Source: Archaeoglobaceae archaeon | GTDB lineage: Archaea; Halobacteriota; Archaeoglobi; Archaeoglobales; Archaeoglobaceae | Direction of reading: 5' to 3' | Length of the DNA: 63,126 nt | Assembly (NCBI GenBank): GCA_025058735.1 | Contig: JANXDX010000011.1 | Span: 1-63,126 of the forward strand | Shown: piece after piece, positions 33,449 through 40,123 of the stretch | Numbering within the stretch: position 1 is the first letter of the stretch | How the letters are laid out: every line of letters begins with the position of its first letter | Made by a program: the position numbers and the translations under genes | The notes under the pieces: model-generated | What the model was told of the DNA's origin: nothing | Databases searched by the model: none | The model's input: the letters and a program-made list of their open reading frames with translations, nothing else

Positions 33449-34500
33449 TAGAGGCTCCAATAGACTTAATTGAGGAGTACTTCAAGGTTAAGCAGAGGGC
33501 TTTAGAGGTGATCTTCTCAGTTAAACTTTCTAAGAAGGCTCACTTAAGCTTCAACAAGGAGGATAGTGAAAGCTTAGAAATGAGTTGTTGAAAGATTGGA
33601 AGTACTCTAAGCACTATGTGGATTCAGCAATAAACTCTGTCATAGGCCTTGTCAAGGGCTGGATAACGCTATACAACAGAGGGAGGGCGAAAGAGAAGCC
33701 TAAAATAACAAAGAAAACTGTCTACATCAAAAACACGCTTTTCAGTTATAGGAACGGTGTTCTCAAGATAAGTATAGAGCCGAATAAACGACATCTGAAA
33801 GTAGACTTAACAGAGCATTCATGGATTCCAAAAGACTTCGATAGGATTGGAGGCTTAATCCTAACAGAGAGGGAATTGATAATCACTGTTAAGAAGAACG
33901 TTGAGCCAAAAGCAGAAAAGTGGGCTTCATTCGATGTAAACCTGACAAACATAACAGCTCTAGTGAATGGAGAGGTCAAACGTTACGATTTGAGGGAGCC
34001 CTATCACATTCACAAGGTATATGAGGTTAAGCGCCAAAGAATACAAAAGCTAAGCAAAAATAAGCCTAAAACATCAAAGAGACTACTCAGAAAATATTCG
34101 AACCGAGAGAGAAACAGAGCTAGAGATTTCATGCATAAACTAACAACAGACATAGTTAGGGAGCTTAAAGAAAACGGCTGCGGAGCAATCCTAGAAGACC
34201 TAAAAAATATTAAAAAGAGAATTCTAAAACGGCTCAAGAAACATGAACCGCAAGCTCTCAAAGTGGAACGCTAGAACTTTCCAGTTCATGCTAGAATACA
34301 AGCTCCTCTGGGCTGAGCTACCAGTAAAATATGTGAAACCACAAAACACATCAAAAACCTGTCCTCTCTGTTCTGGGAGCATGGCTCCCTATGAGGACAG
34401 GTTAATGAAATGCAGTAACTGTGGCTTCATATTGGATAGAGACGTTATAGCTGTGCTGAACCTTCAGATTGGGGGCAGATCTCCAAAGGGTCCTCGATGA
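33418..34500 (+). pseudogene. tnpB: TnpB (RNA-guided nuclease of IS607/IS605), two frameshifts
   Basis: Three frames together give a near full-length TnpB of about 360 residues: 33418-about 33575, about 33575-34240, and about 34240-34500. Residues of all three RuvC positions remain: Asp in ASFDVNLTN, Glu in AILEDLKNI, and Asp in DRDVIAVLNL. The zinc ribbon (CPLC ... CSNC) is intact. The first shift is a one-base loss near SESL/RNELL. The second is a net one-base gain (or two-base loss) just before NRKLSKWN. The gene is therefore dead by frameshift rather than by active-site loss. Confidence 0.85.
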
Positions 34501-38219: not shown

Positions 38220-38558
38220 ATGAAAAGGATCGAACTCTACACATACGAAGATGCAACAAAAGACATGGAAGAAGGAATTTGCGAGGAAGATGCGATAATT
38301 AAAAAGTGGGAATCGATAGTAGATGCTCTAATAGAAATTGAAAACGTTGCTTTGCAAATAACACCGTACTGTGAAAAGTATTTTGATTGCGAAGGTTGTC
38401 CCATAACACTTTTTGATTACGACTGTTCTCATCCTATGTCGATATACAACATATTCTGCACCGAGCTGAAAAAGCTCAGAATAATCACTGAAAGTATGCT
38501 TACAACTCTTTACTTAGTTAAAAGAAAAATTGAAAAAGATAGAGAGCCTTTTGTATGA
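38220..38558 (+). CDS. Cys-rich helical protein paired with a radical SAM gene
   Basis: A 112-residue protein not recognised by me. An acidic N-terminal half contains C21; the middle holds a compact set C51, C57, C60, C69, H71 and C80 (PYCEKYFDCEGCPITLFDYDC), which could bind an Fe-S cluster or zinc; the C-terminal helix is LKKLRIITESMLTTLYLVKRKI. It overlaps the radical SAM gene by ATGA, so the two are translated together. A GAGGAG ribosome-like site lies 11 bp before the ATG. It may be a partner or substrate of the radical SAM protein. Confidence 0.75.
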   Translation: MKRIELYTYEDATKDMEEGICEEDAIIKKWESIVDALIEIENVALQITPYCEKYFDCEGCPITLFDYDCSHPMSIYNIFCTELKKLRIITESMLTTLYLVKRKIEKDREPFV

Positions 38559-39475
38559 GATGCAAATGTGGAGCTAAGCTCTTCAGTAAAGCAATTCCTC
38601 TTTGCCCAAAGTGCGCAAAAAGAGAAGTAGTTGATTTACATCCACCTTTGTACAAAGTAGAAGTAAAAAAATGCAAACTCTGCAGTAACGAGTGCAGTGG
38701 ATTGGCTTTGTGTGGGAAGCCACCTTATGGAGCTCTAAGTTATTACGAAGATCCTTTGCCAACAAATTGCTGTAATGCCTGGTTCTGCAAAGCAAGTAAA
38801 ATGAGAGGAACGAATTTGGCAGTTTTTTATTATGGATGTAACTTCGATTGTCTTTTCTGTCAAAACTGGATACATAAAAGAATACCTGGAAGAACTGTAG
38901 AGATAGAAGAGTTACTTGAAGTTTTAAAAAATGAAAGAATAAAATGCATATGTCACTTTGGCGGTTCTCCTGAGCCCCAACTTCCATATGCTTTGAAGTT
39001 TTCAAGAAAAGCTTTAGAGATTAGAAGAGATCTAATGATTTGCTGGGAATGGAATGGAGCTGGAAATACTAGTTTAGCTTTAAGGGCTGCTGAGATAAGT
39101 AGTAGAAGTGGTGGAACTGTTAAGTTCGATCTAAAAGCTTGGAACGATAATTTGCATGTAATTTTGACTGGTAGAAGTAATGAAAGAGTTAAAGAGAACT
39201 TCTGTAAAATAGCTGAAAAATACTTAGAAGTCCTTTCCGCGACAACTCTTTTGGTTCCGTTTTACGTAGATGCTGAAGAGGTTGAGAACATTGCAAAGTT
39301 CATATCTTCGATAGATGAAAACATTCCTTACAGCCTTCTAGTTTTCCATCCAGATTACAGATTGTCTGATATGCCAATAACTCCGAAAGATCAGGTTTTT
39401 GAATGCTACAGCGTAGCTAAAAAACATTTGAAGAACGTAAGTATAGGAAATTTACACTTGCTTTATAGATTTTAG
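38555..39475 (+). CDS. Radical SAM protein with Cys-rich N-terminus
   Basis: A 306-residue PflA-like radical SAM protein. The SAM cluster motif is CX3CX2C (C95, C99, C102 in YGCNFDCLFCQNW). Before it are eleven cysteines: C3, C5, C17, C20 (zinc-ribbon-like), C40, C43, C47, C53, C72, C73 and C78, enough for a zinc site plus at least one auxiliary cluster. Later motifs include HFGGSPEPQLP and VKFDLKAWN. The substrate is unknown. It is translationally coupled to the Cys-rich protein before it; its tail overlaps hemD by 24 bp on the opposite strand. Confidence 0.86.
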   Translation: MRCKCGAKLFSKAIPLCPKCAKREVVDLHPPLYKVEVKKCKLCSNECSGLALCGKPPYGALSYYEDPLPTNCCNAWFCKASKMRGTNLAVFYYGCNFDCLFCQNWIHKRIPGRTVEIEELLEVLKNERIKCICHFGGSPEPQLPYALKFSRKALEIRRDLMICWEWNGAGNTSLALRAAEISSRSGGTVKFDLKAWNDNLHVILTGRSNERVKENFCKIAEKYLEVLSATTLLVPFYVDAEEVENIAKFISSIDENIPYSLLVFHPDYRLSDMPITPKDQVFECYSVAKKHLKNVSIGNLHLLYRF

Positions 39476-40123
39476 AAGATCCAGAACACTTTCAAAAGTA
39501 CTCTCCTTAGGTTTCAACGCTTCTATTGAAAAATTCTTTAAATATTGAGCAGTTGGCTCGCCTATAGCTACAACAATTTTCTTTTTCAAAACCTCTGGAT
39601 CGCACAGATCTAAAAAGCTTTCAGCGATCATCTTACTTGAGAAAACTATAACGTTGAAAAAGCAATCCTCCGTAAGTTTTACAACTCTTTTTTGTTCATC
39701 TCCGTTCAATTTCTTTGTTCTGTAAGCTACAACTTCTGAAAAATTGCAGAACTTGGAAAGTTCTCTCAACTCATCCCCACCTTTATCACTTCTTATTGCC
39801 ACAACTTTCTTACCTTTGACCACATCTTTAAACTCCTCAACTAAGCTTTTTGAGTTAAAATTCTTAGGTATCAATGCTTTTTGGTTCAAGGCTTTTGCTG
39901 TCTTCTCTCCAATTGCAATAACATTTTTTAGCTTTATTTTTCTTTCAACAATAGCTTTTGCAGCATTTTGACTTGTAACGATTGCATAGTCATGTTCTGG
40001 AACTTCAAAGTCTAGAAATTCTATTTCTATGAATGGACAGCCATAAGTTTCAAATCCTTCCATTTTAAATTTTTCTAAAGTCTCTTTCAATTGCTCTCTA
40101 GGTCTTAAAATTAAAACTCGCAT
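39452..40123 (-). CDS. hemD: Uroporphyrinogen-III synthase
   Basis: A 223-residue two-lobed HemD that cyclises hydroxymethylbilane with D-ring inversion. Visible: an early MRVLILRPREQ, DYAIVTSQNAAKAIVE, the lobe linker VIAIGEKTAKAL, AIRSDKGGDELREL, FSEVVAYRTKKL, NVIVFSSKMIAESFLDL and IVVAIGEPTAQYL. These fit the family, which is poorly conserved in sequence. It overlaps the nitrilase gene by 13 bp. hemC, hemL and cobA are 10 kb away at 49.4-52.2 kb. Confidence 0.88.
   Translation of the reverse strand: MRVLILRPREQLKETLEKFKMEGFETYGCPFIEIEFLDFEVPEHDYAIVTSQNAAKAIVERKIKLKNVIAIGEKTAKALNQKALIPKNFNSKSLVEEFKDVVKGKKVVAIRSDKGGDELRELSKFCNFSEVVAYRTKKLNGDEQKRVVKLTEDCFFNVIVFSSKMIAESFLDLCDPEVLKKKIVVAIGEPTAQYLKNFSIEALKPKESTFESVLDLLKSIKQV

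Follow-up and report, generated by a model that had tools for sequence, protein, structure and literature searches.

The window, the whole stretch of 63,126 nucleotides from an Archaeoglobaceae archaeon that was analysed here, belongs to a genome of 1,222,266 bases in 29 contigs and carries a gene for a small cysteine-rich protein directly followed by a gene for a radical SAM enzyme (Table 1). The first-pass annotation had described the two genes as overlapping by ATGA, and the enzyme as having eleven cysteines ahead of its SAM cluster. Both descriptions are borne out: the genes lie on the same strand and share these four bases, and the cysteines in question are C3, C5, C17, C20, C40, C43, C47, C53, C72, C73 and C78. 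The flanking genes that were scanned in the window include those for PfkB, HemD, CN_hydrolase, UbiA and Lactamase_B, among others. Elsewhere in the window, two overlapping frames on the plus strand (229 and 85 amino acids, positions 33585-34500) appear, by eye, to be two parts of a TnpB-type transposon gene that a frameshift has divided.

Table 1. Coordinates of the gene pair, its motifs and the convergent neighbor in the window
Feature	Position	Strand	Properties or basis
Small protein gene	38220..38558	+	112 aa; predicted hairpin of two helices, four cysteines at the turn; putative divergent branch of a virus-borne cysteine family
Codons of C51, C57, C60 (then P61), C69	38370..38426	+	Invariant in 18/18 rows
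ATGA overlap, small gene/enzyme gene	38555..38558	+	Read from both ORFs
Radical SAM gene	38555..39475	+	306 aa; pyruvate-formate-lyase-activase-like predicted fold
Enzyme front, eleven cysteines	38561..38788	+	10/11 invariant in 28 rows, C73 in at least 90%
CX3CX2C motif (C95, C99, C102), SAM-binding 4Fe-4S cluster	38837..38860	+	Sequence, alignment
HemD (uroporphyrinogen-III synthase) gene	39452..40123	-	Convergent, overlaps enzyme gene; conserved neighbor outside the pair

The radical SAM enzyme

The enzyme matches the Pfam models Radical_SAM (66.1 bits, cut-off 29.5) and Fer4_12 (25 bits, cut-off 22) and falls below every NCBIfam cut-off, with the best score of 48.4 bits obtained for YjjW, against a cut-off of 250.2. 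Its predicted structure (mean pLDDT 91.2) has pyruvate formate-lyase activating enzyme (PFL-AE) as the best fold match in the PDB (E 2.3e-11, TM 0.64 by query length), and the two PDB sequence matches at E ≤0.01 are both to PFL-AE. The enzyme alignment comprises 28 rows out of 40 frames, near-copies, one frame with an ambiguous residue and one broken frame having been excluded; in addition to the early cysteines, which are conserved as given in Table 1, C95, C99, C102, C131, C133, C163 and C284 are invariant. C3/C5 and C17/C20 would make up a zinc-ribbon-like N-terminus, and C40-x2-C43-x3-C47-x5-C53 together with C72-C73-x4-C78 could hold an auxiliary cluster.

The survey set consisted of 99 genomes, the window's own and 98 relatives, with 55 of the total coming from its own family. 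A glycyl radical enzyme (PF01228) was detected in 17 of these genomes and in 14 of the 49 in which the radical SAM enzyme scores at least 200 bits; none was found in the window's genome (G000) or in the other 35 of the 49, so that activation of a glycyl radical enzyme is not the general task of this protein, and that role was rejected. We take the enzyme gene of genome G040 to be AF_0117, and the designation Act to stand for pyruvate-formate-lyase activase. PMC8359953 lists ‘Act-1-4 (AF_0117, ...)' after PflCD and PflX; the available portion of PMC3004389 does not deal with the enzyme, and among the partial texts returned by literature searches by context, locus tag and motif string, there was no paper on the gene pair or on the virus family described below.

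The genome neighbors of the enzyme change from genus to genus and point to no pathway. Near the enzyme gene of two genomes from another family of the same order (L113:7595-9314 and L108:4397-6142), there are frames of 495-498 and 82-84 amino acids that, by eye, are of the sulfite reductase and TusA types, respectively, and immediately downstream of the enzyme gene, genus g10 has a conserved frame of 72 amino acids (L125:1047-1265 and L126:8714-8932). Where all 28 aligned rows have a glutamine after the SAM-cluster cysteines, the enzyme gene of G055 has an in-frame TAG (L113:10062-10064), with the frame open on both sides; this may be a sequencing error, a pseudogene or a read-through codon.

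Distribution and linkage of the two genes

Matches to the small protein were found in 20 of the 99 genomes, all of the window's own family, and 18 of these have an intact frame; G049 has a 42-residue fragment with a stop, and the copy in G044 is a remnant with three stops (L106, about 1500-1760), a decay that demonstrates that the small gene can be lost. The profile of the small proteins (A1), run against 392 genomes of the phylum at E ≤0.01, produced 22 matches, namely the 18 intact genes, the G044 remnant, a protein from G089 that is discussed below, and weak frames with stops in G194 and G350 that were taken as chance. In a scan of a genome collection, 58 pattern matches yielded 15 confirmed loci (one of these, L093, partial), all of them from entries titled Archaeoglobus, Ferroglobus, Archaeoglobales, Archaeoglobaceae or Archaeoglobi. 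Beyond the copy in the window, a search of the window's genome at E ≤10 detected no second small gene. Of the 49 genomes that pass the 200-bit threshold for the enzyme, 41 are among the 55 of the window's own family and 8 lie outside it. Among those 41, there are 17 with an intact small gene and 24 without one, of which 17 are rated at least 95% complete; in G029 (90% complete, 320 contigs), the small gene is present and a close copy of the enzyme was not found.

The small gene adjoins the enzyme gene in 8 of the 18 genomes that have it intact (G000, G009, G013, G016, G024, G033, G040 and G045). These genomes belong to the genera g1, g5 and g8, and in all of them, the small gene lies directly upstream on the same strand, either overlapping the enzyme gene or separated from it by a gap of up to about 26 bases, counting from the first ATG. 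The remaining 10 small genes are located elsewhere, among unrelated neighbors and with no relative of the enzyme adjoining, an arrangement that the first-pass annotation itself had named as a refutation of its proposal. In the chromosome of G019, the one among these ten that is complete, the two genes are 249 kb apart; six of the ten unlinked contigs are shorter than 50 kb and three are under 6 kb, so that only the near neighborhood is covered on these. The scanned neighbors of the unlinked copies vary by genus and include lysyl-tRNA synthetase, M48 peptidase, deoxyhypusine synthase, an ARMT1-like phosphatase, a KaiC ATPase and an HTH/TOBE regulator. In G042, a gene with a CxxCxxCC putative metal-chelating domain (PF03692; L065:9057-9479) is convergent with the small gene. 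Among 14 loci, a tRNA gene is found within 1 kb of the small gene only in L072.

In the unrooted tree of the small proteins, the eight linked rows make up one side of a branch with 100/100 support, and the linked or unlinked state is shown to have switched a single time on this tree. The tree of the enzymes places the linked clade within unlinked lineages, and this favors, although it does not prove, a gain of linkage in the linked clade. The same clade also holds enzymes of the window's own genus from genomes that lack the small gene, a pattern suggestive of genomes that lost this gene and retained the enzyme. Three enzymes of that genus were aligned from genomes with no intact small gene, and they keep all the invariant cysteines.

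The gene order around the pair is conserved in part. In the five linked loci that were read (the window, G009, G013, G016 and G040), genes for HemD and a CN-hydrolase come after the enzyme gene, and the same holds for three loci of the window's own genus that have no small gene (G003, G005 and G007), so that part of the synteny is independent of the pair; the next gene is an HTH gene in all eight loci except the window. The gene directly upstream of the pair differs among the five linked loci, and the maintenance of linkage in three genera despite this changing upstream gene hints at selection for togetherness. In G007, a CRISPR-type array with 44 repeat copies spaced at about 67 bases (L077:2576 to about 5500) adjoins the gene, Sir2-like by eye, of the HTH/CN-hydrolase/HemD/enzyme block, and L076 of G003 contains frames derived from the same kind of repeat.

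The first-pass annotation had viewed the pair as a small module in which an enzyme is coupled to its substrate, carrier or delivery protein. What stands of this proposal is the tight pair in the eight linked genomes; with 10 of the 18 small genes unlinked and 24 genomes of the family having the enzyme only, a general enzyme-plus-substrate module is unlikely, and the pair is a true operon in one clade only. For that clade, it is possible, if rather unlikely, that the two genes do constitute a true module, with the small protein serving as a dedicated substrate, docking adaptor or regulator of the enzyme that would have been recruited from a virus-type family and lost where it was no longer needed. 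The overlap or tight spacing in all eight linked genomes and the linkage that three genera keep while the upstream neighbors change (in five loci) argue for such a module. In addition, four of the eight show, by eye, a TTTAAATA box some 30 bases ahead of the small gene, a position that would suit a transcript starting with this gene. Apart from the unlinked and enzyme-only genomes, this interpretation has to contend with the three own-genus enzymes that retain all the invariant cysteines in genomes without the small gene, and with the HemD gene that follows the enzyme in five linked loci and equally in three own-genus loci devoid of the small gene, so that synteny alone may explain the linkage.

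The small protein and a virus-borne cysteine family

The C-x5-C-x2-C-x8-C-x-H set noticed in the first-pass annotation is present in the small protein (C51, C57, C60, C69 and H71), and its cysteines are invariant in all 18 aligned rows, along with P61, K29, W30 and further residues, but the histidine is not: 12 rows have H at position 71, and the other six, all of them small proteins linked to the enzyme, have E or D. The histidine was, accordingly, rejected as a conserved ligand; C21 and C81 are not conserved either. The predicted structure (mean pLDDT 82.9) consists of two long helices, residues 22-53 and 75-107, with the cysteines mainly between them. Around the cysteine turn, the block means drop to 54-67, and with model confidence low right at this turn, a metal site is something that we infer. 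No Pfam or NCBIfam family matched the small protein at E ≤1, and when Pfam was searched with the members of A1, any one family matched at most three of them (best E 0.017). The fold search of the PDB with the small-protein model returned long-helix proteins, at a best E of 1.3.

The one match of A1 outside the small genes that was retained is weak: P0003, a protein of G089 (E 1.4e-4), the other frames around which are, by eye, mobile-element-like. The reverse search with P0003 in 196 genomes (E ≤0.01) returned the protein itself and nine weak matches, two of which are small genes (those of G019 and G021). Two motif scans of virus contigs yielded 11 and 67 stretches, and apart from some chance frames, most of the frames listed from these belong to one family with the pattern SIxKWexIv...NC[AP]LC...CxGCPv...C...aelxFLxsL. 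Two profiles were built from this family, A2 with 30 sequences picked by eye and A3 with 7, both of which include P0003; A2 contains no Archaeoglobaceae rows.

In hhalign comparisons, A1 scored 60.5 against A2 (pairwise E 5.4e-10) and 57.0 against A3, in a short alignment of low identity in which A1 has an Neff of only about 2. The shuffle controls for these comparisons (60 each) reached at most 25.8 with all columns shuffled, 25.7 with the cysteine columns kept and 42.6 with the whole cysteine window kept, and the reversed-profile control at most 17.4. After removal of P0003 and its five nearest virus rows from A2 (24 of the 30 rows retained), the score was 53.6, compared with the respective shuffle maxima of 19.3, 26.9 and 47.5, and with this smaller profile, every one of the 18 small proteins obtains a score in the range of 18.1-29.2 bits. 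A search of 384 genomes with A2 at E ≤1e-6 produced four matches: the G089 row that is part of the profile, and three small genes, those of G018, G028 and G025; the window's own small protein was not reached at this threshold. The profile match between the small proteins and the virus family exceeds the shuffle controls, and is obtained in both search directions. A scan of virus contigs with A1 gave 43 pattern matches and one with P0003 gave 5, none of which were confirmed, and tblastn searches of deposited phages (with P0001, P0003 and L162) and plasmids (with P0003) detected no relative, so that the link to viruses rests on the profiles and the motif scan.

Judging from these comparisons, the small protein is almost certainly homologous to the virus-borne family. 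The small proteins have four of the five cysteines that are invariant in that family, and would for this reason represent a divergent branch rather than full members. Convergence of short cysteine-rich helical proteins, as opposed to descent, could be invoked given the short alignment of low identity, the low Neff of A1, the mismatch of five versus four invariant cysteines, and the comparatively narrow difference between 53.6 and 47.5 when the cysteine window is kept and P0003 with its nearest rows removed. We nevertheless give this explanation hardly any credence: shuffles that keep the cysteine columns reach no more than 25.7 where the actual scores are 57.0-60.5, and 26.9 where the actual score is 53.6, the A2 search finds three small genes and otherwise its own row only, and of the nine weak matches that P0003 has besides itself, two are small genes.

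To our knowledge, no metal binding or biochemical function has been described for the virus family. When the 30 members of A2 were searched against PHROGs, Pfam and NCBIfam, each family listed was matched by no more than one or two of them (best E 0.0027), and PDB sequence searches with A1 and A2 found no match at E ≤1. A known defence system was rejected as a candidate: no PADLOC model matched the two window proteins, P0003 or one virus member at E ≤0.01. In the 67 of the 77 virus loci that have a usable motif frame, no other gene family is shared by more than three loci at a distance of up to four genes from the family member. In three related virus contigs (L138, L140 and L146), a radical SAM frame of 240-263 amino acids lies a few genes away from the family member, and the L138 copy, the only one scanned, matches NrdG2 with 137.8 bits against a cut-off of 131.15. 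This neighborhood recalls the pair in the window and, to that extent, favors the module interpretation; it is, however, confined to one virus group, the pattern scan of the remaining virus loci having revealed one further plausible radical SAM frame (L155), and is an anecdote, not a statistic.

Interpretation and comparison with known systems

The explanation that we favor, and consider probable, is an operon made up of two genes that have histories of their own, one for an activase-type enzyme and one for a virus-related hairpin, and that stand side by side in one clade of the Archaeoglobaceae only. The enzyme would combine an activase-type barrel with a zinc-ribbon-like N-terminus, and its further cysteines most likely hold an auxiliary iron-sulfur cluster; it would make the 5'-deoxyadenosyl radical for a substrate that, in general, is something other than the small protein. 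The latter would be a helical hairpin stabilized by a metal (zinc or an iron-sulfur cluster), a chromosomal branch of the family found on virus contigs, and most likely an adaptor that binds protein or nucleic acid; as with the metal content, any direction assigned to the transfer between virus and host is presumptive.

The four invariant cysteines of the small protein, encoded beside a protein with many cluster-type cysteines, and the adjacency of the small gene to the putative chelating-domain gene (PF03692) in G042 would also fit a metal or iron-sulfur carrier that loads the enzyme in the linked clade and serves other clients elsewhere. This is very unlikely, considering that genomes lacking the small gene still have the enzyme with its invariant cysteines, and that searches of Pfam and NCBIfam linked the small protein to no known carrier family and those of the PDB to no sequence. 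A broader conjecture, to which we assign a low probability, is that activase-type radical SAM enzymes employ the virus-type hairpins as detachable adaptors or substrates; one such hairpin would have been tamed in the Archaeoglobaceae and fixed in an operon in one clade, and the virus group would have the same kind of pair, a hairpin near an NrdG2-type activase.

What appears to be new is the placement, on sequence grounds, of the small protein with a family of virus-borne proteins that have five invariant cysteines; it would be a divergent chromosomal branch of this family, for which Pfam, PHROG and NCBIfam gave no convincing match. A lineage-specific orphan would thus gain a home, and because the Archaeoglobaceae keep a chromosomal copy with many invariant residues, a culturable archaeon could be used to learn the role of the virus family. 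The well-kept radical SAM enzyme, for its part, is now separated both from its likely annotation, glycyl-radical-enzyme activase, and from its neighbor.

Among the known systems, pairs of a RiPP precursor and a radical SAM maturase resemble the linked clade in that a radical SAM gene is immediately preceded by a small one. Unlike in such pairs, no SPASM- or twitch-type model matches the enzyme (Pfam and NCBIfam, E ≤1), conservation of the small protein extends over both helices instead of showing a division into leader and variable core, and more than half of the small genes (10/18) have no relative of the enzyme adjoining. The AmmeMemoRadiSam enzyme (TIGR04337) aligns over model positions 8-287 with residues 48-340 of L108, a relative from outside the family, whereas the enzyme of the window scores 47.2 bits and two relatives 60 and 76.7 bits against a cut-off of 220, with neither AMMECR1 nor Memo among the flanking genes scanned. 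With PFL-AE (PDB 3c8f) and the glycyl-radical activases, the enzyme shares the CX3CX2C motif and, in the predicted model, the activase-type fold; these lack the eleven-cysteine front, the enzyme is below every activase cut-off in NCBIfam, and the genome of the window yielded no glycyl radical enzyme. The virus NC[AP]LC-x5/7-C-x-GCP family (A2) differs from the small protein in its CxLC pair, of which the archaeal proteins keep the second cysteine only, and the archaeal branch sits among ordinary chromosomal genes; the two have in common the KW-containing first helix, the C-x(n)-C-x2-C-P core, the fourth cysteine and the second helical stretch.
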